Part shown: in pieces, positions 19,950-47,622 of the stretch | How positions within the stretch are numbered: the first letter of the stretch is position 1 | How the letters are laid out: each line of letters starts with the position of its first letter | Assembly (NCBI RefSeq): GCF_026151205.1 | Contig: NC_087084.1 | Span: 250,001 to 314,000 of the forward strand | Direction: 5' to 3' | Length of the DNA: 64,000 bases | Origin: Bolinopsis microptera | Lineage: Eukaryota > Ctenophora > Tentaculata > Lobata > Bolinopsidae | Made by a program: the position numbers and the translations under genes | The notes under the pieces: model-generated | The model's input: the letters and a program-made list of their open reading frames with translations, nothing else | Told to the model about the DNA's origin: nothing | The model's database searches: none

Positions 19950-22900
19950 GTGAGTACACCATCACGTGACTATAAGAAGTGTTGTGACGTCATCACACTG
20001 TTAGTGACGTCATCACACTGTTAGTTTTGAAATTATTTTCAAACTCCAAATAAATATGTAGTTCAAATATCGTTTAATGTTTTCTTTCAAATGATAGCGA
20101 AACAGTAAACAGGATGTAGCCTGTAACCATGGTAACAATCACCAGGTAACAGCGTTATGTTGTGGAGTATCGTGTTTGTGCCGTCCCTTCAGACTGTGAA
20201 CAACGTGTTTCTTGCTTCACTCTGCTGTGCTAATCTTCTCAACGGACTCTTCACAATGCCCTTCATAGGTCAGTGTATAGTGGAGGTAGTGTATAGTGGA
20301 GGTAGTGTATAGTGGAGGTAGTGTATAGTGGAGGTAGTGTATAGTGGAGGTAGTGTATAGTGGAGGTAGTGTATAGTGGAGGTAATGTATAGTGGAGGTA
20401 GTGTATAGTGGAGGTCGTGTATAGTGGAGGTAGTGTATAGTGGAGGTAGTGTATAGTGGAGGTAGTGTATAGTGGAGGGAGTGTATAGTGGAGGTAGTGT
20501 AGTGTATAGTGGAGGTAGTGTATAGTGGAGGTAGTGTATAGTGGAGGTAGTGTATAGTGGAGGTAGTGTATAGTGGAGGTAGTGTATAGTGGAGGTAGTG
20601 TATAGTGGAGGTAGTGTATAGTGGAGGTAGTGTATAGTGGAGGCAGTGTAGTGTATAGTGGAGGTAGTGTATAGTGGAGGTAGTGTATAGTGGAGGTAGT
20701 GTATAGTGGAGGTAGTGTATAGTGGAGGTAGTGTATAGTGGAGGTAGTGTATAGTGGAGGTAGTGTAGTGTATAGTGGAGGTAGTGTATAGTGGAGGTAG
20801 TGTATAGTGGAGGTAGTGTATAGTGGAGGTAGTGTATAGTGGAGGTAGTGTATAGTGGAGGTAGTGTATAGTGGAGGTAGTGTATAGTGGAGGTAGTGTA
20901 TAGTGGAGGTAGTGTATAGTGGAGGTAGTGTATAGTTGAGGTAGTGTAGTGTATAGTGGAGGTAGTGTATAGTGGAGGTAGTGTATAGTGGAGGTAGTGT
21001 ATAGTGGAGGTAGTGTATAGTGGAGGTAGTGTATAGTGGAGGTAGTGTATAGTGGAGGTAGTGTATAGTGGAGGTAGTGTAGTGTATAGTGGAGGTAGTG
21101 TATAGTGGAGGTAGTGTATAGTGGAGGTAGTGTATAGTGGAGGTAGTGTATAGTGGAGGTAGTGTATAGTGGAGGTAGTGTATAGTGGAGGTAGTGTATA
21201 GTGGAGGTAGTGTAGTGTATAGTGGAGGTAGTGTATAGTGGAGGTAGTGTATAGTGGAGGTAGTGTATGGTACTTGTTCTACTTCAGATATATACATTTT
21301 ACATTGTATTAGTAAGTTTCGAATTTAATGAGAAGACGAAATGAAAAATAAATACATATAGCTTTGTAACGTGTATAATAATATTTGTGTAACTACTGTA
21401 CTTTCTCTCAGCTCACTCGCTGACATCAAATCAGTCGGACGTAACTGTCTTACCTCTAAAGAAAGCTTCAATGTGTACTATAAGTGGATTCGTAGATAAC
21501 GGAGCCATGGTGGGATTTATGTGGACCTTAACTCTACTCAGTATCGACAGGTTAGTAATCTACTTTACTCAGTATTGACAGGTTAGTAATCTACTTTACT
21601 CAGTATTGACATGTTAGTAATCTACTTTACTCAGTATTGACATGTTAGTAATCTACTTTACTCAGTATCGACATGTTAGTAATCTACTTTACTCAGTATC
21701 GACATGTTAGTAATCTACTTTACTCAGTATCGACAGGTTAGTAATTTACTTTACTCAGTATCGACATGTTAGTAATCTACTTTACTCAGTATTGACAGGT
21801 TAGTAATCTACTTTACTCATTATTGACAGGTTAGTAATCTACTTTACTCAGTATTGACAGGTTAGTAATCTACTTTACTCAGTATCGACATGTTAGTAAT
21901 CTACTTTACTCATTATTGACATGTTCGTAATCTACTTTACTCATTATTGACATGTTAGTAATCTACTTTACTCATTATTGACATGTTAGTAATCTACTTT
22001 ACTCATTATTGACATGTTAGTAATCTACTTTACTCAGTATCGACATGTTAGTAATCTACTTTACTCAGTATCGACATGTTAGTAATCTACTTTACTCAGT
22101 ATTGGCATGTTAGTAATCTACTTTACTCAGTATTGACAGGTTAGTAATCTACTTTACTCAGTATTGACAGGTTAGTAATCTACTTTACTCAGTATTGACA
22201 GGTTAGTAATCTACTTTACTCAGTATTGACAGGTTAGTAATCTACTTTACTCAGTATTGACAGGTTAGTAATCTACTTTACTCAGTATCGACATGTTAGT
22301 AATCTACTTTACTCATTATTGACATGTTAGTAATCTACTTTACTCATTATTGACATGTTAGTAATCTACTTTACTCATTATTGACATGTTAGTAATCTAC
22401 TTTACTCATTATTGACATGTTAGTAATCTACTTTACTCATTATTGACATGTTAGTAATCTACTTTACTCAGTATTGACAGGTTAGTAATTTACTTTACTA
22501 AGTATCGACATGTTAGTTATCTACTTTACTCAGTATTTTCCACCCAGATTTGTGTTGATCAGATACCCGATATGGTACAAACTGAAACAAAACAAAAACA
22601 GAGCCGCCTTACTTTTACTTCTTACTTGGACATTTTCTTGTGGTCTGGTTACACCTCCTATATTCCACGTTGGTAAATACAGGTCAGAACTTCTACTAGA
22701 GTACTTGTTACTATAGTCACTGTAACTTGTAATATATAAAAGTATGTAAAATAATGTAAAAGTATGTAAAAGTATGTAAAAGTATGTAAAAGTATGTAAA
22801 AGTTCAACTCAGATATTCGAAGTGGACGTTTTCCTGCGGAATAGACCCGATAGACAAAGTTCAGCTCGCTTTAGACAATGTTTACAATCCTACCTTCTGC

Positions 22901-25900
22901 TACTTTCTGGGATTCTGCTGTGTTAACAGTGTCCTGCCAATTCCTATCGTACTCATCAGCAACCTTCACATATTAGGGGTAAGTTTACTGTACTCCTTCA
23001 CATATTAGGGGTAAGTTTACTCATCAGTAACCTTCACATATTAAGGGTAAGTTTACTGTACTCATCAGCAACCTTCACATATTAGGGGTAAGTTTACTGT
23101 ACTCATCAGCAACCTTCACATATTAGGGGTAAGTTTACTGTACTCATCAGCAACCTTCACATATTAGTGGTAAGTTTACTGTACTCATCAGCAACCTTCA
23201 CATATTAGGGGTAAGTTTACTGTACTCATCAGCAACCTTCACATATTAGGGGTAAGTTTACTGTACTCATCAGCAACCTTCACATATTAGGGGTAAGTTT
23301 ACTGTACTCCTTCACATATTATGGGTAAGTTTACTCATCAGCAACCTTCACATATTAAGGGTAAGTTTACTGTACTCATCAGCAACCTTCACATATTAGG
23401 GGTAAGTTTACTGTACTCATCAGCAACCTTCACATATTAGGGGTAAGTTTACTGTACTCATCAGCAACCTTCACATATTAGGGGTAAGTTTACTGTACTC
23501 ATCAGCAACCTTAACATATTAGGGGTAAGTTTACTGTACTCATCAGCAATCTTTACATATTAGGGGTAAGTTTACTCATCAGCAACCTTCACATATTAAG
23601 GGTAAGTTTACTGTACTCATCAGCAACCTTCACATATTAGGGGTAAGTTTACTGTACTCATCAGCAACCTTCACATATTAGGGGTAAGTTTACTGTACTC
23701 ATCAGCAACCTTCACATATTAGGGGTAAGTTTACTGTACTCATCAGCAACCTTAACATATTAGGGGTAAGTTTACTGTACTCATCAGCAACCTTCACATA
23801 TTAGGGGTAAGTTTACTGTACTCATCAGCAACCTTCACATATTAAGGGTAAGTTTACTGTACTCATCAGCAACCTTCACGTATTAGGGGTAAGTTTACTG
23901 TACTCATCAGCAACCTTCACATATTAGTGGTAAGTTTACTGTACTCATCAGCAACCTTCACATATTAGGGGTAAGTTTACTGTACTCATCAGCAACCTTC
24001 ACATATTAGGGGTAAGTTTACTGTACTCCTTCACATATTAGTGGTAAGTTTACTGTACTCATCAGCAACCTTCACATATTAGGGGTAAGTTTACTGTACT
24101 CATCAGGAACCTTCACATATTAGGGGTAAGTTTACTGTACTCATCAGCAACCTTCACATATTAGGGGTAAGTTTACTGTACTCATCAGCAACCTTCACAA
24201 ATTAGGGGTTAGTTTACTGTACTCATCAGCAACCTTCACATATTAGTGGTAAGTTTACTGTACTCATCAGCAACCTTCACATATTAGTGGTAAGTTTACT
24301 GTACTCATCAGCAACCTTCACATATTAGGGGTAAGTTTACTGTACTCATCAGCAACCTTCACATATTAGGGGTAAGTTTACTGTACTCCTTCACATATTA
24401 GGGGTAAGTTTACTGTACTCATCAGCAACCTTCACATATTAGGGGTAAGTTTACTGTACTCATCAGCAACCTTCACATATTAGGGGTAAGTTTACTGTAA
24501 TCATCAGCAACCTTCACATATTAGGGGTAAGTTTACTGTAATCATCAGCAACCTTCACATATTAGGGGTAAGTTTAGTGTACTCATCAGCAACCTTCACA
24601 TATTAGGGGTAAGTTTACTGTAATCATCAGCAACCTTCACATATTAGGGGTAAGTTTACAGTAATCATCAGCAACCTTCACATATTAGGGGTAAGTTTAC
24701 AGTAATCATCAGCAACCTTCACATATTAGGGGTAAGTTTAGTGTACTCATCAGCAACCTTCACATATTAGGGGTAAGTTTACTGTAATCATCAGCAACCT
24801 TAACATATTAGGGGTAAGTTTACTGTACTCATCAGCAACCTTCACATATTAGGGGTAAGTTTACAGTAATCATCAGCAACCTTCACATATTAGGGGTAAG
24901 TTTACTGTACTCATCAGCAACCTTCACATATTAGGGGTAAGTTTACAGTAATCATCAGCAACCTTCACATATTAGGGGTAAGTTTACTGTACTCATCAGC
25001 AACCTTCACATATTAGGGGTAAGTTTACTGTAATCATCAGCAACTTTCACATATTAGGGGTAAGTTTACTGTAATCATCAGCAACCTTCACATATTAGGG
25101 GTAAGTTTACTGTACTCCTTCACATATTAGGGGTAAGTTTACTGTACTCATCAGCAACCTTCACATGTTAGGGGTAAGTTTACTGTACTCATCAGCAACC
25201 TTTACATATTAGGGGTAAGTTTACTGTAATCATCAGCAACCTTCACATATTAGGGGTAAGTTTACTGTACTCATCAGCAACCTTCACATATTAGGGGTAA
25301 GTTTACTGTACTCATCAGCAACCTTTACATATTAGGGGTAAGTTTACTGTACTCATCAGCAACCTTCACATATTAGGGGTAAGTTTACTGTACTCGTCAG
25401 CAACCTTCACATATTAGGGGTAAGTTTACTGTACTCATCAGCAACCTTCACATATTAGGGGTAAGTTTACTGTACTCATCAGCAACCTTCACATATTAGG
25501 GGTAAGTTTACTGTACTCATCAGCAACCTTCACATATTAGGGGTAAGTTTACTGTACTCATCAGCAACCTTCACATATTAGGGGTAAGTTTACTGTACTC
25601 CTTCACATATTAAGGGTAAGTTTACTGTACTCATCAGCAACCTTCACATATTAGGGGTAAGTTTACTGTACTCATCAGCAACCTTCACATATTAGGGGTA
25701 AGTTTACTGTACTCATCAGCAACCTTCACAATTCACATACTAGGGGTAAGTTTACTGTACTCCTTCACATATAAGGGGTAAGTTTACTGTACTCATCAGC
25801 AACCTTCACATATTAGGGGTAAGTTTACTGTACTCATCAGCAGTTTGTTTTTTAAAAAAAAGTTTGAAACCCCACGGTGGAGGGTGGCGTGTGCCGCAAT

Positions 25901-28900
25901 TTATTAATCAATGGTAATTACATGATAAATGAAATTATAGAAGTCACACTAAAATATAATAATGTAAAATAGAATATATTAAAATAAATGCACTACTAAA
26001 AGTACTATATAACTAACGGTCTGCAAAACTGGTTGGAGTCGCAATTTGTAAACATGCTAATTACTATTCAATAATAATAGATAAAAAGTTTTGCGCGGCA
26101 GATGTAAATTCGGCATTGCATCATGGCAGTGAAATTAAAATGCTATGTTGTTGATAAAAGATCATAGTCATTTGTCGCGAGTGATCTTTCTCTACGCGTT
26201 GTCGCTTACTAACTGGGTGCTGTAGTCTATTTGCGAGCGCCCTTCTCTTTGAGACTTTCTTAGCCCAGGTATACTATAAAGTAAGAAATTTGGCCAATTT
26301 TCATCGTCTCCTGAGCTTTGCAGCTTGAGGAGTTCGCGCTTAGCTGAATTTTTAAAGATTTCAATTGAAAAGGTAGAACTTGGAATAGTTATATCCTTAC
26401 TTTGTTTAGTAATAGAGAGCATGGGTCCTTTGAAGAAAAGAGTATTTCTAAATGTTGGGCCGTTGTAAGTTGTGAACCAAGAAAGGTTATGTTCGTATGT
26501 GGAATTAAAGGTGGGAATATCGTGAGGGAAAAGTTCTTTTATGGATTTAGGGAGAAGGCTTGGCATGTTCCTTACTTTGTGTAGTAGAATAAGAGCGTTT
26601 TTTACAATGACGCTATGGACTGTTAGGATATTATGCAATCTAAACGCACTTTTTGTGTGCTCCGGGGGATTGCCGTCTTTATATCTGTAATTTACATATC
26701 CTGACATAACAGCTCTAATTCCCTGCTTTTGCTTGGTGAACAGAGATTCAATGTGACATTTTGAGGCAAATCCCCACACTAAAGAACAGAAATTTAGATG
26801 GGATTGGATAAGGCTTTGGAAAATGTTTAGGCGGGCTTTGATAGGTAGAAGGTGCTTTAGCTTATACATAACTCCGAGGTAGCGACCCATCTTTATTCTA
26901 ACTGCCGTAATGTGTTTTTGCCAAGTCAGATTTTCGTCTAGGATCACTTCTAAAAATCTTGCTTCAGTCTTACGTTCGATTACAGTGTTGTCAATGGACA
27001 AATTAAAGCCGCTGAAGTCGATTCTTTTTCTAGTGAAAATCATGTAACACGTCTAACAGCAACCTTCACATATTAGGGGTAAGTTTACTGTACTCATCAG
27101 CAACCTTCACATATTAGGGGTAAGTTTACTGTACTCATCAGCAACCTTCACATATTAGGGGTAAGTTTACTGTACTCCTTCACATATTAGGGGTAAGTTT
27201 ACTGTACTCATCAGCAACCTTCACATATTAGGGGTAAGTTTACTGTACTCATCAGCAACCTTCACATATTAGGGGTAAGTTTACTGTACTCATCAGCAAC
27301 CTTCACATATTAGGGGTAAGTTTACTGTACTCATCAGCAACCTTCACATATTAGGGGTAAGTTTACTGTACTCATCAGCAACCTTCACATATTAGGGGTA
27401 AGTTTACTGTACTCATCAGCAACCTTCACATATTAGGGGTAAGTTTACTGTACTCATCAGCAACCTTCACATATTAGGGGAAAGTTTACTGTACTCATCA
27501 GCAACCTTCACATATTAGGGGTAAGTTTACTGTACTCATCAGCAACCTTCACATATTAGGGGTAAGTTTACTGTACTCATCAGCAACCTTCACATATTAG
27601 TGGTAAGTTTACTCTACTCATCAGCAACCTTCACATATTAGGGGTAAGTTTACTGTACTCATCAGCAACCTTCACATATTAGGGGAAAGTTTACTGTACT
27701 CATCAGCAACCTTCACATATTAGGGGTAAGTTTACTGTACTCATCAGCAACCTTAACATATTAGGGGTAAGTTTACTGTACTCATCAGCAATCTTTACAT
27801 ATTAGGGGTAAGTTTACTCATCAGCAACCTTCACATATTAAGGGTAAGTTTACTGTACTCATCAGCAACCTTCACATATTAGGGGTAAGTTTACTGTACT
27901 CATCAGCAACCTTCACATATTAGGGGTAAGTTTACTGTACTCATCAGCAACCTTCACATATTAGGGGAAAGTTTACTGTACTCATCAGCAACCTTCACAT
28001 ATTAGGGGTAAGTTTACTGTACTCATCAGCAACCTTCACATATTAGGGGTAAGTTTACTGTACTCATCAGCAACCTTCACATATTAGTGGTAAGTTTACT
28101 CTACTCATCAGCAACCTTCACATATTAGGGGTAAGTTTACTGTACTCATCAGCAACCTTCACATATTAGGGGAAAGTTTACTGTACTCATCAGCAACCTT
28201 CACATATTAGGGGTAAGTTTACTGTACTCATCAGCAACCTTAACATATTAGGGGTAAGTTTACTGTACTCATCAGCAATCTTTACATATTAGGGGTAAGT
28301 TTACTCATCAGCAACCTTCACATATTAAGGGTAAGTTTACTGTACTCATCAGCATTCTTCACATATTAGGGGTAAGTTTACTGTACTCATCAGCAACCTT
28401 CACATATTAGGGGTAATTTTACTGTACTCATCAGCAACCTTCACATATTAGGGGTAAGTTTACTGTACTCATCAGCAATCTTTACATATTAGGGGTAAGT
28501 TTACTGTACTCATCAGCAACCTTCACATATTAGTGGTAAGTTTACTGTACTCATCAGCAACCTTCACATATTAGGGGTAAGTTTACTGTACTCATCAGCA
28601 ACCTTCACATATTAGGGGTAAGTTTACTGTACTCCTTCACATATTAGGGGTAAGTTTACTGTACTCATCAGCAACCTTCACATATTAGGGGTAAGTTTAC
28701 TGTACTCATCAGCAACCTTCACATATTAGGGGTAAGTTTACTGTACTCATCAGCAACCTTCACATATTAGGGGTAAGTTTACTGTACTCATCAGCAACCT
28801 TCACATATTAGGGGTAAGTTTACTGTACTCATCAGCAACCTTCACATATTAGGGGTAAGTTTACTGTACTCATCAGCAATCTTTACATATTAGGGGTAAG

Positions 28901-31900
28901 TTTAATGTACTCATCAGCAACCTTCACATATTAGAGGGTAAGTTTACTGTACTCATCAGCAACCTTCACATATTAGGGGTAAGTTTACTGTAATCATCAG
29001 CAACCTTCACATATTAGGGGTAAGTTTACTGTAATCATCAGCAACCTTCACATATTAGGGGTAAGTTTACTGTACTCATCAGCAACCTTCACATATTAGG
29101 GGTAAGTTTACTGTACTCATCAGCAACCTTCACATATTAGGGGTAAGTTTACTGTACTCCTTCACATATTAGGGGTAAGTTTACTGTAATCATCAGCAAC
29201 CTTCACATATTAGGGGTAAGTTTACAGTAATCATCAGCAACCTTCACATATTAGGGGTAAGTTTACTGTACTCATCAGCAACCTTCACATATTAGGGGTA
29301 AGTTTACTGTACTCATCAGCAACCTTTACATATTAGGGGTAAGTTTACTGTACTCATCAGCATCCTTCACATATTAGGGGTAAGTTTACTGTACTCATCA
29401 GCATTCTTCACATATTAGGGGTAAGTTTACTGTACTCATTAGCAACCTTCACATATTAGGGGTAAGTTTACTGTACTCGTCAGCAACCTTCACATATTAG
29501 GGGTAAGTTTACTGTACTCATCAGCAACCTTCACATATTAGGGGTAAGTTTACTGTACTCATCAGCAACCTTCACATATTAGGGGTAAGTTTACTGTACT
29601 CATCAGCAACCTTCGCATATTAGGGGTAAGTTTACTGTACTCATCAGCAACCTTCACATATTAGGGGTAAGTTTACTGTACTCATCAGCAACCTTCACAT
29701 ATTAGGGGTAAGTTTACTGTACTCATCAGCAACCTTCACATATTAGGGGTAAGTTTACTGTACTCATCAGCAACCTTCGCATATTAGGGGTAAGTTTACT
29801 GTACTCATCAGCAACCTTCACATATTAGGGGTAAGTTTACTGTACTCATCAGCAACCTTCACATATTAGGGGTAAGTTTACTGTACTCATCAGCAACCTT
29901 CGCATATTAGGGGTAAGTTTACTGTACTCATCAGCAACCTTCACATATTAGGGGTAAGTTTACTGTACTCATCAGCAACCTTCACATATTAGGGGTCAGT
30001 TCAGTGTTCACCACTTTAATTTGAAGTGCAATACTAAGTAGTAACATTGTTATTTTAATTAATAACTTATATATTATTATATTATATAATTGTGGGTGGC
30101 GTCGTCTACTGACAGTGCTCAATCGGCAAGCCGAGAGCTAGATACAAATAGGAACGACCGGTTGAGTCAAACAATTGTTTCAATCATGGAAGCATGATAT
30201 CACCAGTGACAATTGAGGTAGGAAATAAAATTATTTTAAGTACAAAGCTAAAAGTTTACATGAATAATCACTCGCGTCGCGAAACATAATATAGCCTCCA
30301 TATTTTTTACTCGCATTCAAATTATTATATTCGATTTATTTGACTCAACTGGTCGTTTCTACTTGTATTATTATATAATATATACTTTAAAAAATCTGAT
30401 CTATTTAATCACGAATGTAATCTAATAATCATAATTGATATAATCTAATAAGTTGCTAACACAATCTAATAAATAATCTAATTACAGGTGTTATTAAAAA
30501 CTCCCAGACGAATAAGGAAGGAACATTTGGCTAGACGATATCGTAAGAGCGCTAAGTTAATGATGGTTCTTACTGCTTATCTAATGTTATCTCTCAGTCC
30601 GGGTGAGCCTAAGATACTGATAGCCATCTCGTTCAATTTTAACAAGAATTGCGCCGGTTAGCGGACGCTAAATTTCCATCAACCGTATAGGTATGAACTT
30701 TTAAAATTTAAAATTACAATTAACGATCGTTTCATGTTGGTCAAATTATCAAATAATGGTTTTTTATTCATCATTCTTGGGGCGCTACGGAGCACAAAAT
30801 GGAGGGGTTGCCATTGTCAATTATTCAAATTTAAAAAGTTAAATGACCGAACAACGTAGCCTGTGTGGTTATATGCAGTTATGCAGCCATGTGAAGGAAT
30901 AGTTTTTTACAATTTACATAAGTTGTTAGATTAAATAAATGGTAGTCGTGAAATCTGTGGTAGGTAATGTAACTCATAATAATGTAACTCATGGACCATT
31001 TATGGTCCAATTCGTATATTAAATCAATCAGTATCACTCGACAATCATGTTCAACATACAACATAACTTCAGCATCATAATTTGTTTAACAATATAAAGG
31101 ATTACTATTACTAATATGTAATATCGGGAGCCAAGTCGGTGGTTGCACCAAGCACTCACAACAAAACGAGAAGTTTGTATGTTGTAGCGCATTAATGATC
31201 ATTGATCAAGTTTAAAAAAAGCTTGAACTACTTTAACTTCAATTACCATAGAATTCAAATTGTATGCTTGGTGCAGTGCATTCGAAAGTGTAATTCAATC
31301 AATCGTCAAATCGTGCAAACGTATGCGGAGGGTAACTATGGCGACAACACTATTACTGCTCTGCGCGCGGAGAAGTTACATTAAAATGGCGTATCTTTGT
31401 CCATATTTATAGGGTGGAAAAATAAAGGAGCACACTTTTTCCATTCACACCCTTTTGTAAAACAGCAATTTTTTTTTTTGTTCAGGGAGCAGGCTTGCCA
31501 CATAGGTCCAGGAGTACCGAACGTTTAGGCAGGGTGCTAGGTTATGGAACACACTCAACTAGTATAGGTAGTCTGAGAGTCCGAAATCTCCAAAAGGAGA
31601 TGTCATCAGAGTGTGATCCACTGCCTGACTAACCTGTGGGTAGAGTTCTTTAGACTCTATTATGATGACAGGTAGTATCTTCTGTATGTTGCTGAGATCC
31701 AGTGTCCATGGTACCTATCACCTATCTAGATAATAATAACGAAATGGGAGGCTCTATTTGTCCAAGTGTGCTTCAAATTAAACTGATAAATAAAATACAA
31801 ATTTGAATTTAAAAATTTTTAAAACCAATAATAAATATAAGGATAAATACCTTGACTGAAATAGTGAATGTCTCTGAAGAAGTAGAGACGTAGAACTTGT

Positions 31901-34900: not shown

Positions 34901-35918
34901 ATTACATTAACTGGGAATACACATGCATTATGGAGTTTAAATTATCACTTTTGTCACCATGCCAGCCGCTTTGGCATAGGCAATTTTGAATTTTTATTTC
35001 CATAATATCGGTTTTTGGTATAAGCAGGATAATGATATAAATGCTTCATTTGATTTCATTTCATAATTTTTTATTTGTTTTAAATTTGATTATTTCAATA
35101 AAACATAATTCATGTCTAATAACCTTAATAATCTTACCATACTTATTTCTCATATATTTATAATACTTAGTGATATAGTTCCTAATATGGTATGTTATCT
35201 TCAGTGCCGAGACAGAGCAGCAACACAACACAAAACGGAACTCAGCAGACTGTAATCACTGACATTGGGTGCTCTCCTTTCGATAGCCCTAATCAGAGGT
35301 AACAACAACCAATCAGGACACACTATTCACACCACGTGACACAAACCAACCAATCAGAAGACAGTATTTACACCACATGACACAAACCAGCCAATGAGAA
35401 GACAGTATACACACCACGTGACACAAACCAACCAATCAGAAGACAGTATTCACACCACGTGACACAAACCAGCCAATGAGAAGACAGTATACACACCACG
35501 TGACACAAACCAGCCAATGAGAAGACAGTATACACACCACGTGACACAAACCAACCAATCAGAAGACAGTATTCACACCACGTGACACAAACCAACCAAT
35601 CAGAAGACAGTACTCACACCAAGTGACACAAACCAACCAATCAGAAGACAGTATTCACACCACGTGACACAAACCAACCAATCAGAAGACAGTATTCACA
35701 CCACGTGACACAAACCAACCAATCAGAAGACAGTATTCACACCACGTGACACAAACCAACCAATCAGAAGACAGTATTTACGTAGTCTCATGCTGACCCC
35801 TAATTTCAGGTTCGTGTTCCCAGCCCCCTCCTCGAGCGAGGGTCTTGAAGGAGAACTGCTCAGAGTCTGGGACGAGGAGTATCTCAAGGTTAGCAACGGG
35901 GTCGAGTCAGAAGTTTGA
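18887..35918 (+). CDS. Class A (rhodopsin-like) GPCR, 11 coding exons, 17 kb
   Basis: Eleven exons join in consistent phase into one frame of 766 codons (459 if translation begins at the last ATG in the N-terminal array, 19808), ending TGA at 35916-35918. Class A landmarks are in order: GN in TM1 (split by intron 1), SLCCANLL in TM2 (Asn where most receptors have Asp2.50), MCTISGF and SIDRF (DRF for DRY) in TM3, a Trp in TM4, an ECL2 Cys (FSCG) pairing with the TM3 Cys, PIPIV in TM5, a basic ICL3 (RRIRK..RRYRK), a Pro in TM6 (SLSP) and TPIFF in place of NPxxY in TM7. The tail of about 130 residues ends SEV, a class I PDZ-ligand pattern. The ligand cannot be told. It is a plasma-membrane receptor by family. 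Introns total about 14.7 kb, mostly tandem repeats. An upstream exon is possible because the first exon starts at an acceptor-like site. Confidence 0.9.
18890..19826 (+). repeat. 51-bp array inside the first GPCR exon, 18 copies
   Basis: Exact 51-bp period (17 codons), with CAGTTCAC anchors 918 bp apart from the first to the last copy. Copies differ only by AAC/ATC, ACT/ATT and AAC/AGC changes. The period keeps the frame, unlike the 16, 31, 41 and 14-bp periods of the intronic arrays of the same gene. Confidence 0.95.
20146..20268 (+). CDS. GPCR exon 2: TM1 end to TM2
   Basis: Acceptor ATCACCAG|GTAAC, donor CATAG|GTCAGT, phase 1 on both sides. It encodes GNSVMLWSIVF (with the conserved TM1 Asn), the short ICL1 and TM2 (NNVFLASLCCANLLNGLFTM). 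Intron 1 is only 196 bp and contains a two-copy 21-bp duplication with TGACGTCA, a CRE-type site. Confidence 0.9.
20272..21268 (+). repeat. Intron 2 array: 16-bp unit, about 62 copies
   Basis: The unit GTGTATAGTGGAGGTA starts 3 nt after the donor of exon 2. Its AGGTAGTGTATAG resembles the donor itself (ATAG|GTCAGTGTATAG), so the array may have grown from the splice site. Six copies carry an extra 5-bp GTGTA, spaced about 115-185 bp apart, which marks a higher-order pattern. Confidence 0.95.
21412..21550 (+). CDS. GPCR exon 3: ECL1 and TM3
   Basis: Acceptor TTTCTCTCAG|CT, donor CGACAG|GTTAGT (phase 1 in, phase 2 out). It encodes HSLTSNQSDVTVLPLKKA (with an NQS sequon) and TM3 starting MCTISGF and ending LLSIDR. 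The TM3 Cys is the usual disulphide partner of ECL2. Confidence 0.93.
21551..22520 (+). repeat. Intron 3 array: 31-bp copies of the exon 3 end plus donor
   Basis: About 31 copies. Each unit has TACTCAGTATTGACAG followed by GTTAGTAATC, nearly the same as the true junction TACTCAGTATCGACAG|GTTAGTAATC. Many copies read GACATGTTAG, so the last exon base of the donor is mutated (G to T) and the site is weakened. Read from exon 3, the array meets a TGA in the first unit. Confidence 0.95.
22548..22682 (+). CDS. GPCR exon 4: ICL2 and TM4
   Basis: Acceptor TTTTCCACCCAG|A, donor TACAG|GTCAGA, phase 2 on both sides. It completes DRF and encodes VLIRYPIWYKLKQNKNR (ICL2) and TM4 with the conserved Trp (LLLLLTWTFSCGLVTPPIF). 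Confidence 0.93.
22738..22800 (+). repeat. 10-bp repeat in intron 4
   Basis: About six copies of AAAAGTATGT in a 130-bp intron. Confidence 0.85.
22813..22978 (+). CDS. GPCR exon 5: ECL2 and TM5
   Basis: Acceptor CAACTCAG|A, donor TTAGGG|GTAAGT, phase 2 in and phase 0 out. It encodes YSKWTFSCGIDPIDKV (the ECL2 Cys), then TM5 with two Pro (NSVLPIPIVLISNLHILG). Confidence 0.93.
22979..25842 (+). repeat. Intron 5 array, part 1: 41-bp copies of the exon 5 end plus donor
   Basis: About 70 copies of a 41-bp unit. It has 30 nt identical to the end of exon 5 (ACTCATCAGCAACCTTCACA, then TATTAGGG) and 11 nt of intron (GTAAGTTTACT). Nearly every copy keeps a strong donor GGGGTAAGT. Shorter units lacking CATCAGCAAC recur throughout. 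Reading on from the true donor meets TAG at the end of the first unit. The array continues at 27056-29996 after a LINE insertion. Confidence 0.97.
25843..27055 (-). mobile_element. 5'-truncated LINE inserted in the intron 5 array
   Basis: An insertion of about 1.2 kb with array on both sides. On the minus strand it carries the C-terminal part of a non-LTR retrotransposon and ends in an A-rich tail (TTTTTTTTAAAAAACAAAC). The possible target duplication CAGCA is too short to be sure. Confidence 0.85.
26192..27043 (-). CDS. LINE reverse transcriptase, C-terminal fragment (Jockey/CR1-like)
   Basis: 283 codons that begin inside the polymerase domain. YMIFTRKR and FLEVILDENLTWQKHI are the block after the catalytic YADD in Jockey/CR1-type elements, followed by the usual thumb-like region (IKARLNIFQSLIQSHLNF, LVWGFASK). 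The endonuclease and catalytic palm are absent because of 5' truncation. The remaining frame is intact, so the insertion is fairly young, but it cannot be active by itself. Confidence 0.85.
   Translation of the reverse strand: MIFTRKRIDFSGFNLSIDNTVIERKTEARFLEVILDENLTWQKHITAVRIKMGRYLGVMYKLKHLLPIKARLNIFQSLIQSHLNFCSLVWGFASKCHIESLFTKQKQGIRAVMSGYVNYRYKDGNPPEHTKSAFRLHNILTVHSVIVKNALILLHKVRNMPSLLPKSIKELFPHDIPTFNSTYEHNLSWFTTYNGPTFRNTLFFKGPMLSITKQSKDITIPSSTFSIEIFKNSAKRELLKLQSSGDDENWPNFLLYSIPGLRKSQREGRSQIDYSTQLVSDNA
27056..29996 (+). repeat. Intron 5 array, part 2
   Basis: About 72 more copies of the same 41-bp exon-donor unit. Runs of variant units near 27580-27850 recur near 28060-28310, which shows a block duplication of about 480 bp. 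The array ends in AGGGGTCAGTTCAGTG. Confidence 0.97.
30488..30602 (+). CDS. GPCR exon 6: ICL3 and TM6
   Basis: Acceptor CTAATTACAG|GTG, donor CCGG|GTGAGC, phase 0 in and phase 1 out. It encodes a strongly basic ICL3 (VLLKTPRRIRKEHLARRYRK) and most of TM6 (LMMVLTAYLMLSLSP). Intron 5, just before it, is 7.5 kb. Confidence 0.93.
30643..32626 (+). mobile_element. TIR-bounded element in GPCR intron 6
   Basis: Ends are inverted: CAAGAATTGCGCCGGTTAGC at the left and, read on the minus strand, CAAGAATTGCGCCCGTTG at the right, each followed by GCGGACGCTA(A/G)ATTTCCAT. The first 750 bp match 38488-41023 in reverse orientation. No transposase is seen. The 31469-31714 retroelement fragment is nested inside. 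Confidence 0.65.
31469..31714 (-). mobile_element. SINE-like A-tailed element, copy 1
   Basis: On the minus strand it runs from GGTACCATGGACACTGG to CCTGAACAAAAAAAAAAA. It matches 32699-32955 over its whole length in opposite orientation. No clear pol III box set is recognised, so it could be a LINE 3' end. Confidence 0.7.
32699..32955 (+). mobile_element. SINE-like A-tailed element, copy 2, with 12-bp TSD
   Basis: Runs from TGGTACCATG to CTGAACAAAACAAAAA and is flanked by the exact direct repeat ACTTCTAACCAT (32687-32698 and 32956-32967). The A-rich tail and 12-bp target duplication fit LINE-type retrotransposition. Together with copy 1 it forms an inverted pair about 1 kb apart. Confidence 0.8.
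33435..33545 (+). CDS. GPCR exon 7: TM6 end, ECL3, TM7 start
   Basis: Acceptor TTGTTTCAG|TT, donor TTTTTAG|GTTAGT, phase 1 on both sides. It encodes FIGSYLLIVNVIRPNTIPME (end of TM6 and ECL3) and SMRLILTSHMLFL (start of TM7). Confidence 0.92.
33807..33935 (+). CDS. GPCR exon 8: TM7 end and helix 8
   Basis: Acceptor ACAACCCAG|GA after a TTCTTCTTC tract, donor AAGG|GTGCGT, phase 1 on both sides. It encodes GNGAVTPIFFGLFNTSIRNK, where TPIFF stands at the NPxxY position, and a basic Ser-rich tail. The acceptor was chosen because it keeps phase; the AG 14 nt upstream does not. Confidence 0.85.
34172..34580. repeat. Intron 8 array: 14-bp unit, about 29 copies
   Basis: The unit TGGATACCCTGTAA has AAACC and ATCC variants and a repeated block of about 130-160 bp. 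It ends 6 nt before the acceptor of exon 9, so here the array touches a 3' splice site. Confidence 0.95.
34587..34703 (+). CDS. GPCR exon 9: cytoplasmic tail
   Basis: Acceptor TTAAAATAG|GT (weak pyrimidine tract), donor GTCG|GTAAGA, phase 1 on both sides. It encodes FWTNVSHSSFSSSLRKMFQD and then SASAKVSVQKEEDQTRLV, rich in Ser/Thr suited to kinase control. Intron 9 begins with a two-copy duplication of about 40 bp. Confidence 0.8.
35205..35298 (+). CDS. GPCR exon 10: cytoplasmic tail
   Basis: Acceptor TTATCTTCAG|TG, donor CAGAG|GTAACA, phase 1 in and phase 2 out. It encodes PRQSSNTTQNGTQQTVITD and then IGCSPFDSPNQR. Confidence 0.85.
35320..35790 (+). repeat. Intron 10 array: 41-bp unit with E-box and CCAAT, about 11 copies
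   Basis: The unit contains CCACGTGACACAAACCAACC and AATCAGAAGACAGTATTCA. Most copies have CACGTG and CCAAT. The CCAATCAGAAGACAGTA part resembles the adjoining exon end and donor (CCTAATCAGAG|GTAACA), so it may be another splice-site-seeded array. Related single copies lie upstream of the gene (16885-16970) and downstream of the stop (35925-35970). Confidence 0.95.
35810..35918 (+). CDS. GPCR exon 11: C-terminus and stop
   Basis: Acceptor CTAATTTCAG|G. It encodes FVFPAPSSSEGLEGELLRVW and then DEEYLKVSNGVESEV, stop TGA. The last residues (S-E-V) fit a class I PDZ ligand. Confidence 0.88.
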
Positions 35919-39606: not shown

Positions 39607-39644
39607 TTAAGTAGTTCAAGCTTTTCTTTACTTGATCATTGATC

Positions 39645-39719: not shown

Positions 39720-39889
39720 TCATTGATCATGATGCGGTACAACATACTAACTTTTCGTTTTGTTGTGAGTGCTAGGTGCAACCACCGACTTGGCTCCCGA
39801 TATAATAATGTCAATGATATCAGATATTATATAGTAATCCGTTATATTGTTGAACAAATCATGATGCTGATATTATGTTGAACATGATT

Positions 39890-40533: not shown

Positions 40534-40907
40534 TATTTGATTTATAACACGAAATGGACCATAAATGTTATTATGAGTTACATTACCTACAACGGATTTC
40601 ACGACTACCATTTTATTTAATCTAACAACTTATGTAAACTTGTAAACAACCATTCCTTAATCACATGGCTTTCTTTCTTCAAACTTTTAACTGCATATCA
40701 CCACACAGGCGCAGGCTACGGTTTCCGGTCATTTAACTTTTTAAATTTGAATAATTAACAATGGCAACCCCTCCATTTTGTGCTCTGTAGCGCCCCAAGA
40801 ATGGTGAATGAAGAAGCATTATTTGATATTTAGACGAAAATAAAACAATCGTTAATTGTAATTTTAAATTTTGAAAGGCATGGCAATCCCTACGGTTGAT
40901 GGAAATC

Positions 40908-40988
40908 TTACTTGGGGACCTCAGGCTATTGTTCATAAACATACGAATAGAGGTTAGGCGGAATGACAGGCTGAGCGCGACCAAGTAA
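40908..40988. mobile_element. 81-bp MITE-like element
   Basis: TTACTTGGGGACCTCAGGC...CCAAGTAA. It is flanked by TGGAAATC and TGGAGATC (8-9 bp, one mismatch). The uninterrupted site occurs at 30668-30680 (reverse) and at 32581. Confidence 0.8.
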
Positions 40989-41089
40989 TGGAGATCTAGC
41001 ATCCGCTAACCGGCGCAATTCTTCATCTTGTTGTGGTTAATGTTATTACGTTATATTGAGGGTGACCCCCATTGTCGTTTCACTATAGA

Positions 41090-41370
41090 CTATTCGAAAC
41101 CCTAACCCTCTAATCTGATTCCAACCCTAAGCCTAACCCAATCTCTAACAAAATCTTATGCTGAAACTCTAACCGTAACGAGAAATTAAACCAACTTTCT
41201 TAAATGGTCATATTACGTGTGACGTGATCGAGACAGTTTTTCGCCAATATTTCGCCAGGGGACCAGGGTGATTCGGAATCCGCGTCCGAAAATACATAGA
41301 TTCAAGTTAGTCTCAATTGTCGGGGGCTCTCTTAGAAAAATATCGAAGATCGACTGTAGAGTGATTTAGC
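41090..41370. repeat. Dispersed repeat shared with 55455-55740
   Basis: Both copies have AACCCTAA-rich starts, a block with GTGATCGAGACAGTTTTTCG, then GATTCGGAATC and a block ending AGAGT(G/A)ATTTAGCA. Same orientation, about 75% alike by eye. The family is unknown. A looser match lies near 36240-36320. Confidence 0.6.
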
Positions 41371-41394
41371 AAGCTCGCCATTTTTGGTTTCAGC

Positions 41395-41480
41395 CCTGTC
41401 TCCATTTTCTATTGGTTTCAGCCCTGTCTCAATTTTTATTGGTTTCAGCCCTGTCTCCATTTTCTATTAGCATTGGTTTT
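41395..41480. repeat. Three-copy repeat of about 35 bp
   Basis: Three copies of GGTTTCAGCCCTGTCTCCAT with a TTTCTATT tail. Confidence 0.8.
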
Positions 41481-41751
41481 AGTCCCTGGCCATACTACCA
41501 CAATAAGCTAATGCTAATAGTTTAGAAATTATAATTATGGCAATGAATCATTGCATTGCTATCAGTATCCATATTCAACCATCAACATATTTTTCAGTAA
41601 TTTTTTGCAACACTGATTTTGTTGATCATTATTGTATTATATTGGGCTTGTTTTGTTAAGATTTTGCAATCTAAACATTGTGATAATTGTTACGCACTGT
41701 GTAATACACAGCCCTGATCAAGTTAGACACCATTCCATCCTCTACAATAAA

Positions 41752-41920
41752 ATGGATTATAAAGAATCTTCAGTTGCTAGGTTACAGCTGCAAGGTTCCA
41801 GCTCAGAATCACCACAAAACTGGAGACCTGATGTTCGTGGAAACATTTTGTTCTTGACAACTCTGAGAGTTAAGGAAAGTGCTGACTGGAAGGTAATTTA
41901 TGAATATGTTTATTTACCAG
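41752..41920 (+). CDS. Small two-exon gene, exon 1
   Basis: ATG at 41752 in the context AAAATGG, donor TTACCAG|GTAGCT, phase 1. It encodes a Ser/Gln-rich start, NWRPDVRGNILFLTTLRV, then ADWKVIYEYVYLPG. The nearer donor (GGAAG|GTAATT) would break the frame of exon 2. The end of this exon (AATATGTTTATTTACCAG) plus its donor is the unit of the following array. Function unknown. The frame also opens upstream, to 41632 or beyond an acceptor near 41710, so the start is provisional. Confidence 0.55.
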
Positions 41921-43959
41921 GTAGCTACTAAATATGTTTATTTGACCAGGTAGCTACTGATAATGTTTATTTGACCAGGTAGCTACTGAATATGTTTATT
42001 TGACCAGGTAGCTACTGAATATGTTTATTTGACCAGGTAGCTACTGAATATGTTTATTTGACCAGGTAGCTACTGAATATGTTTATTTGACCAGGTAGCT
42101 ACTGAATATGTTTATTTGACCAGGTAGCTACTGAATATGTTTATTTGATCAGGTAGCTACTGAATATGTTTATTTGACCAGGTAGCTACTGAATATGTTT
42201 ATTTGACCAGGTAGCTACTGAATATGTTTATTTGACCAGGTAGCTACTGAATATGTTTATTTGACCAGGTAGCTACTGAATATGTTTATTTGACCAGGTA
42301 GCTACTGAATATGTTTATTTGACCAGGTAGCTACTGAATATGTTTATTTGACCAGGTAGCTACTGAATATGTTTATTTGATCAGGTAGCTACTGAATATG
42401 TTTATTTGACCAGGTAGCTACTGAATATGTTTATTTGATCAGGTAGCTACTGAATATGTTTATTTGACCAGGTAGCTACTGAATATGTTTATTTGACCAG
42501 GTAGCTACTGGATATGTTTATTTGACCAGGTAGCTACTGAATATGTTTATTTGACCAGGTAGCTACTGAATATGTCTATTTGATCAGGTAGCTACTGAAT
42601 ATGTTTATTTGACCAGGTAACGACTGAATATGTTTATTTGACCAGGTAGCTACTGAATATGTTTATTTGACCAGGTAGCTACTGAATATGTTTATTTGAC
42701 CAGGTAGCTACTGAATATGTTTATTTGACCAGGTAGCTACTGAATATGTTTATTTGACCAGGTAGCTACTGAATATGTTTATTTGACCAGGTAGCTACTG
42801 AATATGTTTATTTGACCAGGTAACTACTGAATATGTTTATTTGACCAGGTAGCTACTGAATATGTTTATTTGACCAGGTAACTACTGAATATGTTTATTT
42901 GACCAGGTAGCTACTGAATATGTTTATTTGACCAAATAACTACTGAATATGTTTATTTGACCACGTAGCTACTGAATATGTTTATTTGATCAGGTAGCTA
43001 CTGAATATGTTTATTTGACCAGGTAGCTACTGAATATGTTTATTTGACCAGGTAGCTACTGGATATGTTTATTTGACCAGGTAGCTACTGAATATGTTTA
43101 TTTGACCAGGTAACGACTGAATATGTTTATTTGACCAGGTAGCTACTGAATATGTTTATTTGACCAGGTAGCTACTGAATATGTTTATTTGACCAGGTAG
43201 CTACTGAATATGTTTATTTGACCAGGTAGCTACTGAATATGTTTATTTGACCGGGTAGCTACTGAATATGTTTATTTGACCAGGTAGCTACTGAATATGT
43301 TTATTTGACCAGGTAGCTACTGAATATGTTTATTTGATCAGGTAACTACTGAATATGTTCATTTGACCAGGTAGCTACTGAATATGTTTATTTGACCAGG
43401 TAGCTACTGAATATGTTTATTTGACCAGGTAGCTACTGAATATGTTTATTTGACCAGGTAGCTACTGAATATGTTTATTTGACCAGGTAGCTACTGAATA
43501 TGTTTATTAGACCAGGTAGCTACTGGATATGTTTATTTGACCAGGTAGCTACTGAATATGTTTATTTGACCAGGTAGCTACTGAATATGTATATTTGACC
43601 AGGTAGCTACTGAATATGTTTATTTGACCAGGTAGCTACTGAATATGTCTATTTGACCAGGTAGCTACTGAATATGTTTATTTGACCAGGTAGCTACTGA
43701 ATATGTTTATTTGACCAGGTAGCTACTGAATATGTTTATTTGACCAGATAACTACTGAATATGTTTATTAGACCAGGTAGCTACTGAATATGTTTATTTG
43801 ACCAGGTAGCTACTGAATATGTTTATTTGACCAGGTAGCTACTGAATATGTTTATTTGACCAGGTAGCTACTGAATATGTTTATTTGACCAGGTAGCTAC
43901 TGAATATGTTTATTTGATCAGGTAGCTACTGAATATGTTTATTTGACCAGGTAGCTACT
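41921..43959 (+). repeat. 29-bp array of exon end plus donor, part 1
   Basis: About 70 copies of AATATGTTTATTTGACCAG followed by GTAGCTACTG. The unit is the end of the upstream exon with one added G, and its donor. Reading past the first donor gives GGT AGC TAC TAA, a stop. The array resumes at 47159 after a LINE. Confidence 0.97.
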
Positions 43960-46900
43960 ATATAAACATATATAAACAAAAGCTCTAAGAAACAGATAGT
44001 AAACAAAGTAAACATTTCTGTCCCCTAATCTTTCTCAAACAAAAGTCATGCAATTTGCATACTTCTCCATTTAACTCTATTCTGAGCAATTAACGTTAAA
44101 TAGTCCAAATCACATAAATTATTTAACGATAATTTTCGGACACTAAGGTCGTGTAGAATCAGTGAGAAAAGGTTTGACTGCGGTCTTCCACGCCGCCCTT
44201 GAAGCTGTAAGGTGTTGACAGCAAAAACAAGCGACGAATAGGCTGGGCCATCTGTAGGCCCACGCAGTACATGTCCGAGCATCCTCCACCGACTACGAGC
44301 CACTTTAGCTGACAATGGTTCACTATTGCAGCGTTTATACAAGTTCTTGTTGGAGATGATGTGAGGGTATTTGTAATTCAAAATTGATCGCAGATGACGT
44401 CTGTGAGCAATATCTAGTTTTTCCAATACTGATTTAGGGGCAGCCCAGCAAGATGAATTGTACATTAAAACGGATACTACCAGAGCCTCATACAACAGAA
44501 GCCTCTTGCTCAGAGGGATCTTATGGTTCCAAGCTTTCTTGTATTTGTTAAACGCGGCATATCCCAGACATATCCTTCTAGAGATGTCCTCCTTACTACA
44601 AAGCATGGAGCCAAGCGTGATACTCTTTCTCCAGAGCTCGTTCCCTGCAATTGGCTTACCCTGATCGTCTTTAGCTCCCTTTTCAGCTAGGTACACATGA
44701 GTGAAATCAGTTTTGTCTTCGTTAACGAAGAGATTCCAATCTTTAAGGACTTCTGTTGCAATAGGCAACAGCTCCCTCAAATTGTCTTCATCTTCATCAT
44801 TGAAGTCGATATCATCAGCATACTCACTGTCAAGTGGAAGACCAATATCGGTGATAGGTGGGTTAGGCCTATTCGTTGCAGTTTCAAGCCTGTTACGGAG
44901 GTCACGCAAGGCACCCGCTAAGACAAGTGTGAACAAGCATCCAGACAGACAGTCACCTTGGAATGCACCGAGAAAACTCTGGAATTCAGCAGACAGTGTA
45001 CCGTTGATGTTGACTTTGAGCTTGGTGTTGGAAAGCAAAAGTCTTACCAAACGGACTTCGTCATCATCACAGCCACACTCAACAAGAAGATCGAGGATGG
45101 TAGATCGTCGTATAGTGTCAAAGGCACTAGACATGTCGATCCCCATACGATGGTATTCCCACCTCTTCCTCTGGACAACTGATAACATCACACGCTGGCA
45201 CCATACAATGTCAGCACATGATCTACCCTGCTTGTAAGCACATTGCCATGGACCAGTGAAGGCATTGACTTTATTCTCAATTCTCTTCAAGGTTGCCATT
45301 GAAAGAATCTTTCTAACAGCATTTGAGAGAGTGAGGGGTCGTAGATTCTTCACTGGACCAATGGGCTTATTTGGCTTCTGTAAGGGGGTAATGTTTGCCT
45401 GTCCAATGGGGTCAAGGTAGGAATTGGTCTCGAAGCTTCTATTGATAATGTCTGCAAAACGTCTGTGTACTGATCCAGTAGAATACTCGAGAAGCTCATT
45501 AGGAATCCCATCTGGGCCGTTAGCTCGACCATTTTTGAGACTTCTAGCAGCTGATCCGATTTCTTCACTAGTGAATGGCTTAACTAGTGGGCGAGGAGGT
45601 CCTACAAAAGGTTCTAAAGGTGCTTCATCACGAGTAAGTTGTTGCTCAAGGTACTTAGCAACTACGGCAGCTTTACCAGTGTCTGTTGCAATATTGCACC
45701 CTTGCTCATCATGAACACCAATACTAGAAGGGGCTTTACTTTTAGGTAAGTTCAGGGTTCGAACAGCTTCAAACATTTTCTTACTATCTGTTGTTGAACT
45801 GATGGTATTACAGATAGCATCAGCAGCAGCTGATCGTATGTTAGAAAGTCTCTGCTTGATCTGATTGGTGAGGCAGTTAATAGATGATCTAAGTGAGGTT
45901 CTGTCTAAAGACTGGTTATCATTAAGCTGCTGTCTCAACAAGTAACGCTGGCTAGATAAGTTTTTCACCTCATCATCGTCGCTGCGATTACGTTTCCTGT
46001 GTCTGATGACACCAATTGACGATTTTGCAGCATCCTTTATGGACTCAAGTAAGCCATTCAAGTCTGAATTTGGATCCAGAGCAGAAACAGTGTTACTTAA
46101 GTTATCATCTAAGGATTGACGATATTTCACCTGAATGGTGGGGTTCGAGGTGAGTTCAGAGGTGTTGAACTTTAAGGATGACTTGGAGTTGCGTTTATAG
46201 CAAAGACAGATGTCCTTAAAGTCTACTCTAGTGACAACAAATCTGTGATCAGAGTATGTCAAGGTGCCTGCATAAGATCTAGAATCTTGTAGCATTGGCT
46301 TCGACCTACTTCGACACAGGATGAAATCGATCTGAGAATAGACCGGGATCGTCTTTTTACTATTTCGCCCGGCACTCCAGTCCTTCCTCCAGCCAGTGTA
46401 GGTGGTCGTATGTCGAGCAGGATGATAAAAACCAGTGTTGGAGGCAAAGAGGTCAAATTCTGATAACAAGTCTAACAAGTTTTCTCCCATATCGTTGCGC
46501 AAACCCATACCATGTTTACCCATGAAACGACCAAAACCAAAGTCCTTATCTGAAGCAGTCATTTTTCCCAACTTTGAATTAAAATCTCCCAAAACAAATA
46601 TCTCAACATTAGCAGGGACGTTTAGAGCGTCCCTAACTTGGCCGTAAAAATTAATCAACAGTTGTTGATCATTTTCTGCAAGTTTCTTGTGTGGCCCATA
46701 TACATTGACCACCCTACATTTGATAAATTTTCCAGATTTTGTAGGGAGTTCTAGGTCCAAAAAGCTTACTCGATCACTGATACTGTTCCAGCATACCACA
46801 TAGTCAATAAATCGGGGACTGATAACAAAACCGAGTCCATAGTGCCGGCCATTTTTCTGCTCAAACAATAATAGTTTGTATCCGTTGCTAAGACTGCAAG

Positions 46901-47158
46901 AATCCGGTTTTACAACCTTAGTCTCCTGAATAGCGCAGATATCTATGCCGTACCGTAGACAATCGGTACCCAGTTGCTCCCGTTTGCTGTGGATGTCGTC
47001 TGGATCATCACAAGAACCGAGGCCACGTATGTTAAAGGTGGCGAAGCTGATGAGGAGTGTAGCAAACAGGGATCGTCCTGTAGCTGAGGTAAACATTACG
47101 GAGGGCGATGTTGTCGTCTCTCCGCCGCTGGCGTCTCTCCGCCGCTGGCGTTACCCGT
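43960..47158 (-). mobile_element. Full-length LINE (3.2 kb) inserted in the 29-bp array
   Basis: Bounded by AGGTAGCTACT at 43949-43959 and 47159-47169, which can be an 11-bp target duplication (the array itself carries this motif). The element has a 5' leader of about 60 nt with a doubled TCTCCGCCGCTGGCG, one long ORF and a 3' trailer of only about 86 nt without a poly(A) run, ending in an AT-rich TATATG-type tail. The size and short trailer fit RTE-type elements. Confidence 0.88.
44046..47096 (-). CDS. LINE ORF: AP endonuclease plus reverse transcriptase, 1016 aa
   Basis: An intact frame from ATG to TGA. The endonuclease spans residues about 15-300: FATFNIRG, AIQETK (catalytic Glu near 58), VVNVYGP, LGDFNSK (near 169-175) and SDHRF (near 282). 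The reverse transcriptase spans about 500-830: GPDGIPNELL, LRPLTLSN, GIDMSSAFD, FQGDCLSG and YADD (about 759-762) with the catalytic Asp pair. The C-terminus has RWRMLGHVLR, also seen in the broken copy at 15995-16346. It nicks DNA and copies its RNA at the nick (target-primed reverse transcription). All key residues are present, so the copy may be recent or active. RTE-like is my best guess for the clade; the APE-type LINE call itself is firm. Confidence 0.93.
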   Translation of the reverse strand: MFTSATGRSLFATLLISFATFNIRGLGSCDDPDDIHSKREQLGTDCLRYGIDICAIQETKVVKPDSCSLSNGYKLLLFEQKNGRHYGLGFVISPRFIDYVVCWNSISDRVSFLDLELPTKSGKFIKCRVVNVYGPHKKLAENDQQLLINFYGQVRDALNVPANVEIFVLGDFNSKLGKMTASDKDFGFGRFMGKHGMGLRNDMGENLLDLLSEFDLFASNTGFYHPARHTTTYTGWRKDWSAGRNSKKTIPVYSQIDFILCRSRSKPMLQDSRSYAGTLTYSDHRFVVTRVDFKDICLCYKRNSKSSLKFNTSELTSNPTIQVKYRQSLDDNLSNTVSALDPNSDLNGLLESIKDAAKSSIGVIRHRKRNRSDDDEVKNLSSQRYLLRQQLNDNQSLDRTSLRSSINCLTNQIKQRLSNIRSAAADAICNTISSTTDSKKMFEAVRTLNLPKSKAPSSIGVHDEQGCNIATDTGKAAVVAKYLEQQLTRDEAPLEPFVGPPRPLVKPFTSEEIGSAARSLKNGRANGPDGIPNELLEYSTGSVHRRFADIINRSFETNSYLDPIGQANITPLQKPNKPIGPVKNLRPLTLSNAVRKILSMATLKRIENKVNAFTGPWQCAYKQGRSCADIVWCQRVMLSVVQRKRWEYHRMGIDMSSAFDTIRRSTILDLLVECGCDDDEVRLVRLLLSNTKLKVNINGTLSAEFQSFLGAFQGDCLSGCLFTLVLAGALRDLRNRLETATNRPNPPITDIGLPLDSEYADDIDFNDEDEDNLRELLPIATEVLKDWNLFVNEDKTDFTHVYLAEKGAKDDQGKPIAGNELWRKSITLGSMLCSKEDISRRICLGYAAFNKYKKAWNHKIPLSKRLLLYEALVVSVLMYNSSCWAAPKSVLEKLDIAHRRHLRSILNYKYPHIISNKNLYKRCNSEPLSAKVARSRWRMLGHVLRGPTDGPAYSSLVFAVNTLQLQGRRGRPQSNLFSLILHDLSVRKLSLNNLCDLDYLTLIAQNRVKWRSMQIA

Positions 47159-47622
47159 AGGTAGCTACTGAATATGTTTATTTGACCAGGTAGCTACTGA
47201 ATATGTTTATTTGACCAGGTAGCTACTGAATATGTTTATTTGACCAGGTAGCTACTGAATATGTTAATTTGACCAGGTAGCTACTGAATATGTTTATTTG
47301 ACCAGGTAGCTACTGAATATGTTTATTTGATCAGGTAACTACTGAATATGTTTATTTGACCAGGTAGCTACTGAATATGTTTATTTGACCAGGTAGCTAC
47401 TGAATATGTTTATTTGACCAGGTAGCTACTGAATATGTTTATTTGACCAGGTAACTACTGAATATGTTTATTTGACCAGGTAGCTACTGAATATGTTTAT
47501 TTAACCAGGTAGCTACTGAATTGTTTATTTGACCAGGTAGCTACTGAATATGTTTATTTGACCAGGTAGCTACTGAATATGTTTATTTAACCAGGTAGCT
47601 ACTGAATTGTTTATTTGACCAG
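47159..47622 (+). repeat. 29-bp array, part 2
   Basis: About 16 more copies of the unit of 41921-43959. The last copies carry a 1-base deletion (GAATTGTTT) in two places, probably from duplication of a variant unit pair. Confidence 0.95.

Follow-up and report, generated by a model that had tools for sequence, protein, structure and literature searches.

Minisatellites spanning exon-intron junctions at both ends of introns in the ctenophore Bolinopsis microptera

The receptor gene and its donor-spanning arrays

The stretch of DNA analysed here, referred to throughout as the window, comprises 64,000 nt of the ctenophore Bolinopsis microptera (contig C13, NC_087084.1, positions 250001-314000, in a genome of 264.65 Mb in 232 contigs) and contains a gene for a rhodopsin-like G protein-coupled receptor (GPCR). 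Two of the introns of this gene carry minisatellites built from copies of their own exon-intron junction, and it is this class of element, in the receptor gene and in other genes of the same genome, that we describe. By spliced reading of the window, the gene occupies 18887..35918 on the plus strand in 11 exons (18887-19949, 20146-20268, 21412-21550, 22548-22682, 22813-22978, 30488-30602, 33435-33545, 33807-33935, 34587-34703, 35205-35298 and 35810-35918), with the start of exon 1 uncertain. The spliced frame runs for 767 aa up to the stop, all 10 introns are of the GT-AG type, and a partial 253-aa model from an earlier version matched Pfam 7tm_1 with an E-value of 4.1e-25. At the settings used, Tandem Repeats Finder (TRF) calls a tandem array in nine of the 10 introns.

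The array of intron 3 (21531..22537, plus strand, by TRF) has about 33 copies of a 31-bp unit, the first of which consists of the final 20 nt of exon 3 and 11 nt of the intron; it occupies the intron up to 10 nt short of the acceptor. This intron lies at the codon of the DRY motif, in phase 2. In intron 5, the unit is 41 bp long, with 29 nt from the end of exon 5 and 12 nt of intron, and the array (22950..30001, plus strand) has about 140 copies, some of them shorter variants. Its start was placed by eye, the TRF call being 22995-30001, and the 172.6 copies that TRF counts include a 1.2-kb inserted stretch; once this is subtracted, the estimates are 142 copies by length, 138 junctions and 131 full-length units. 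The insertion (25843..27057, minus strand, ends approximate) is not array sequence, has array units on either side and holds a minus-strand open reading frame at 26192-27052, which resembles a long interspersed nuclear element (LINE) by eye only and matched 0 Pfam families.

Both arrays duplicate their donor more closely than chance permits. A 20-nt segment across the donor recurs downstream, within 400 nt, at 19/20 positions for intron 3 and 20/20 for intron 5, while for the remaining 10 boundaries tested in the window the best recurrence is 10-14/20; across all 10 introns of the gene, two donors and none of the acceptors pass as duplicated. The initial annotation of this DNA had read the arrays of introns 3 and 5 as built on their own donors, and this reading is borne out by the composition of both units. 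The sequence GGGGTAAGT occurs 121 times in the intron 5 array and nowhere else in the window, and of these copies of the donor sequence only the first escapes a stop within nine codons. Reading through the first donor leads to a stop nine codons on, in intron 3 and intron 5 alike. The 767-aa frame is read across the exon-proximal sites. Variants of unit and spacing are seen in this one assembly.

Junction-spanning arrays in other genes

The search for the myosin-head family gave 73 matches at 30 loci, with proteins aligned to the genomic loci; 27 of these, together with L083, were merged into 17 stretches, and the other three lie within L083. For ionotropic glutamate receptors (iGluRs) there were 32 matches at 30 loci, 22 of which were aligned; the eight left unaligned are long open frames (L053-L058, L062 and L070), five of which served as queries. 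At one iGluR locus, L071, two fragments of the ligand-binding region match the receptor ML032222a, a chain that we take to come from Mnemiopsis leidyi, with 80% and 77% identity. From the GPCR search, L045 alone was followed up, chosen for its array.

Donors are spanned by arrays in an iGluR gene on C4 (54 bp x 28, with about 46 nt of exon in the unit), in the iGluR gene L077 on C8 (25 bp x 2) and in the GPCR gene L045 on C11 (40 bp x 17, with 12 nt of exon). The array in the myosin gene L023 on C13 (31 bp x 4) is probably donor-spanning as well; the exon there was called by eye, alignment at low penalty likewise places one at this site, but a search of the PDB with the 29-aa exon peptide gave no match. 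Acceptors are spanned in the myosin gene L014 on C11 (72 bp x 3.1, 33 nt of exon in the unit), in the iGluR gene L075 on C8 (52 bp x 115 over 6 kb, 34 nt of exon) and twice in the C4 iGluR gene, namely by a 44 bp x 16 array at the far end of the intron that carries the donor array and by a 144-bp pair at the next-but-one acceptor. The C4 stretch also has a donor-like array of 46 bp x 5.8 at the end of the alignment, and a candidate at L066 (30 bp x 1.9) is not proven to be a junction array.

In donor arrays the site that preserves the protein is the first copy, in acceptor arrays the last. Unit lengths are 25, 31, 31, 40, 41, 44, 52, 54 and 72 bp, and each unit copies the edge of its own exon, which agrees with the initial annotation in making the cases independent births. 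We discarded the spread of a single repeat family or of introners because the units differ in length and are unrelated in sequence, as judged by reading them. Decoy sites in the largest arrays are as intact as the remaining columns of the unit, with GT in 96% of 131 intron 5 units and AG in 113 of 113 units of the C8 array.

Donors, acceptors and chance

The initial annotation had attributed the arrays to a repeated process at 5' splice sites and had proposed a comparison with 3' splice sites. For this comparison we scored 138 of the 158 modelled introns, after dropping 20 by length or site score; L082 (which overlaps L076) and L074 (weak) were removed before counting, as was L075, which was later extended. 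Duplicated junctions numbered 6 among 137 donors and 5 among 138 acceptors (Fisher P=0.77), counts from which the C8 L075 acceptor, the C4 46-bp array and the L023 donor are excluded. Three of the 11 counted hits, one donor (C3_9156251:1045) and two acceptors (C9_11986443:4520 and C11_L045+:3780), fall on doubtful, very short predicted exons. Among the myosin rows only, the numbers are 1 of 74 donors (doubtful) and 2 of 74 acceptors (one doubtful).

Duplication was also compared between junctions and other positions, with the window gene excluded. It was present at 9 of 255 junctions, 7 of 968 exon positions and 117 of 973 intron positions, so that junctions are struck more often than exon positions (P=0.002) and less often than intron interiors (P=2e-5). 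Under random placement in 139 introns, 44 of them with arrays and an exon overhang of up to 30 nt allowed, the expected numbers of spanned junctions are 5.0 for donors and 4.9 for acceptors; 5 and 4 were observed. Since acceptors carry like arrays and placement fits the random expectation, the data do not uphold the proposed 5' splice-site process: within the sample that could be reached, the comparison with 3' splice sites speaks against a donor-specific process, and on the parity of donors and acceptors, together with the random fit of placement, we reject one acting on donors only.

Growth of a pre-existing intron

One iGluR intron allows growth to be distinguished from gain. The intron at position 258 (phase 1; position via alignment to one query) is common to at least eight paralogues. 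It measures 113-186 nt and has no TRF array in L063, L065, L067, L068, L069 and L072; in L077, where the donor is doubled, it has 332 nt, and in L075, which holds the acceptor array of 115 copies, it reaches 6,286 nt, so that a single intron can be compared in array-free, two-copy and expanded form. The suggestion of the initial annotation that arrays drive intron growth is thus substantiated in this intron. Because it exists array-free in six paralogues, the sequences support growth rather than gain at the one intron that could be judged; the prior absence of an intron, by which a gain would be recognized, is not what these paralogues indicate. The three states also make growth via junction copying directly testable.

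In the C4 iGluR gene, a 2,242-nt intron consists almost entirely of array sequence, with the donor array at one end and the acceptor array at the other. The paralogue pair L013/L014 on C11 did not serve to polarize the acceptor array, as its homology stops within the intron. A paralogue search with the window GPCR gave 14 matches, six of them its own exons, and none was usable to polarize introns 3 and 5; the best non-self match is an intronless 351-aa frame with 30% identity.

Other arrays in the window

Three further introns of the receptor gene have arrays that adjoin the donor without spanning it. The array of intron 2 (20267..21268, plus strand, 16 bp x 61) starts at -2/+4 relative to the donor at 20268, and its unit has no exon content past AG; the looser case that the initial annotation saw here stands in so far as the array adjoins the donor and fails in that the unit has no clear exon sequence. 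The arrays of intron 9 (34714..34790, plus strand, 37 bp x 2) and intron 10 (35306..35778, plus strand, 41 bp x 12) begin 10 and 7 nt past their donors, and the CCAATCAG/CACGTG unit of the latter is similar to sequence at other places in the window. Two arrays approach the acceptor, that of intron 4 (22733..22803, plus strand, 10 bp x 7) to within 9 nt and that of intron 8 (34174..34578, plus strand, 14 bp x 29) to within 8 nt. Exon 1 carries an in-frame coding minisatellite (18903..19832, plus strand) of 18 copies of a 51-bp unit; the receptor N-terminus is therefore a repeat domain, in which the 17-aa unit has NCT and NMS sequons.

A 29-bp unit that had been assigned to a donor of a gene at 41.7 kb proved to be different. 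The array (41901..43959, plus strand, 71 copies) starts about 8 nt past the candidate donor GGAAG/GTAATT (41892/41893) of an unproven gene, inside the putative intron, and the junction is not repeated, the best recurrence of the 20-nt segment being 10/20 (tested one base off). For the putative exon before it, no Pfam match passed the cut-off, the best having an E-value of 0.085. That the unit covers the exon side is consequently true for GPCR introns 3 and 5, and not for this array or those of introns 2, 9 and 10. A further 16 copies (47159..47626, plus strand) lie past an inserted LINE (44046..47150, minus strand), a single uninterrupted 1,034-aa frame with endonuclease and reverse transcriptase (Exo_endo_phos, E 9.1e-8; RVT_1, E 2.3e-20). 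As the LINE sits within the array, the array predates its insertion.

Tandem arrays make up about 49% of the window, situated 250 kb inside one end of its 16.35-Mb contig, compared with 6.9% of the other stretches fetched, which are gene-centred. Many array units share a GGTTAC/GGTAACC-like core (495-1120, 3669-4634, 48149-49974, 50994-52943, 53016-53063, 54341-55158, 57450-58048, 58497-59126 and 62354-62459). In the window and other loci together, GGTTAC is found in 9 of 95 thinned arrays and the reversed motif in 0 of 95; the core occurs beyond splice sites too, and some of these units resemble half sites of the X-box (RFX). One and the same series of arrays, with units of 14, 8, 11 and 30 bp, is found at 495-2855 and at 56258-58048, near both ends of the window, in opposite order and orientation, which suggests a large inverted duplication. 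Just upstream of the GPCR gene, at 17328-18454, there are 188 perfect copies of AGGGTC. An Rfam search of the window gave 0 matches.

Discussion

We consider it likely that the junction arrays are mirages, as such elements are called in amphioxus, and that they result from blind duplication followed by a selective filter, not from seeding by splice sites. Each array would have begun when a short stretch lying across an exon-intron boundary was by chance duplicated in tandem, and subsequent expansion would have brought the largest to more than 100 copies. Such duplications would arise at many places regardless of splice sites, as the placement test supports. Within coding exons they would mostly be purged by selection, a step consistent with their low frequency there, the 51-bp array of exon 1 being an exception. 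Across a donor or acceptor they would be tolerated: the exon-adjacent copy would yield normal mRNA and the other copies would become intron, so that junction arrays would survive because the copy beside the intact exon is still usable. In vivo, the first copy of a donor array and the last of an acceptor array would be the ones used. With repeated expansion the intron would grow from that end, as the paralogues indicate for one iGluR intron.

Several observations weigh against this account, and some of them favour array birth directed at 5' splice sites, in which transcription-linked breaks or a donor-like recombination motif start the arrays. In the window GPCR gene, eight of the nine array-bearing introns have an array start within 50 nt of the donor, where 4.4 are expected (P=0.003, one of six tests). 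Among the 44 array-bearing introns of the placement test slightly more starts than expected fall within 10 nt of a donor (13 versus 8.2, P=0.035, uncorrected and one of 18 tests); within 50 nt the numbers are 19 and 14.8 (P=0.08). The claim that array starts lie nearer to donors than chance allows thus has support in the window gene but not in the 44 introns overall, and no general preference for donors can be claimed. Sites that resemble donors and score 8 bits or more occur in 9 of 87 units and in 1 of 87 reversed units; at 6 bits no like excess appears (20 versus 17), while acceptor-like sites of at least 8 bits point in the same direction (3 versus 0). Decoy GT dinucleotides are below expectation in the C11 array (80% of 15 units versus 93%) and in the C4 array (85% of 27 versus 90%). 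The sample consists of four gene groups from one genome, the C4 and C11 stretches were extended on account of their arrays, which raised the counts, the 30-nt exon overhang of the null was our choice, and normal splicing at the exon-proximal copy is assumed. Nevertheless, acceptors are struck as often as donors and carry arrays as large (52 bp x 115), and spanned donors match the random expectation; we therefore regard such targeting of 5' splice sites as unlikely.

It is very unlikely, in our estimation, that the arrays record intron gain, with tandem duplication of exon sequence containing AG/GT having made new introns. GPCR intron 3 would fit such a history, as it collapses to about 35 nt in which the exon end is copied, and its position at the DRY codon is one for which antiquity and repeated insertion of introns are debated (PMC3151243), but iGluR intron 258 occurs array-free in six paralogues. 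Chance overlap in a repeat-rich region, combined with over-expanded or misjoined arrays in the assembly, would be in keeping with the density of arrays in the window relative to the other stretches (49% versus 6.9%). However, exact exon copies within the unit are incompatible with chance, copies within arrays differ from one another, foreign sequence breaks up two of the window arrays and the two-copy form is found elsewhere (L077); this explanation appears highly improbable.

A broader proposal we put forward tentatively, as a possibility: ctenophore introns may grow inward from both ends by copying their own junctions, and the spliceosome may reliably pick the exon-adjacent site among more than 100 near-identical donors or acceptors, each of them with as much as about 46 nt of true exon sequence attached. 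Intron 5 of the GPCR gene, with 121 donor copies, and the C8 intron, with 113 intact acceptor copies, are natural tests of splice-site choice. If true, the proposal could explain part of the spread in ctenophore genome size and would reveal that splice-site choice obeys a rule not contained in the local sequence.

Comparison with known systems

Tandem genomic duplication is a proposed route of intron gain (PMC4974935, PMC3443670). The likeness to our arrays lies in a duplication that includes a splice signal, and the difference in that the sole intron that can be judged here pre-exists and is enlarged. Human internal tandem repeats at exon-intron boundaries are similar in that variable boundary repeats alter gene structure, but they are reported to give rise to new introns and to alternative transcripts among recently duplicated genes (PMC2812944).

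The closest counterpart is found in amphioxus, where mirages have been described in Adh3, the globins BflGb6 and BflGb9, PGBD5 and troponin C (PMC3087553, PMC3902484). These papers place them at 5' and 3' boundaries, report undisturbed splicing and length instability, and cite units of 10-72 bp for Adh3. Within the searchable literature, junction-spanning minisatellites appear under the name mirages in amphioxus only; among the matches listed in the open-licence literature there was no report of them in ctenophores, and the word "intron" was not found in the main texts of the two ctenophore genome papers searched.

Like the mirages of amphioxus, the ctenophore arrays are minisatellite-like copies across an exon-intron boundary, with AG/GT in many copies and units of similar size. 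Their units combine exon and intron sequence of one boundary (GPCR introns 3 and 5 and the C4, C8 and C11 genes), and they occur at both 5' and 3' boundaries (6 of 137 donors, 5 of 138 acceptors and the C8 acceptor in addition). They differ in belonging to another phylum, in copy numbers of up to 115 and about 140, compared with 3-6 in BflGb6, in their occurrence in three gene families, with an array at each end of one intron, and in being known from the DNA of one assembly alone. We group the ctenophore arrays with the amphioxus mirages, as a further case; arrays of this type are now seen in an animal only very distantly related, at either end of introns and in genes of three families.

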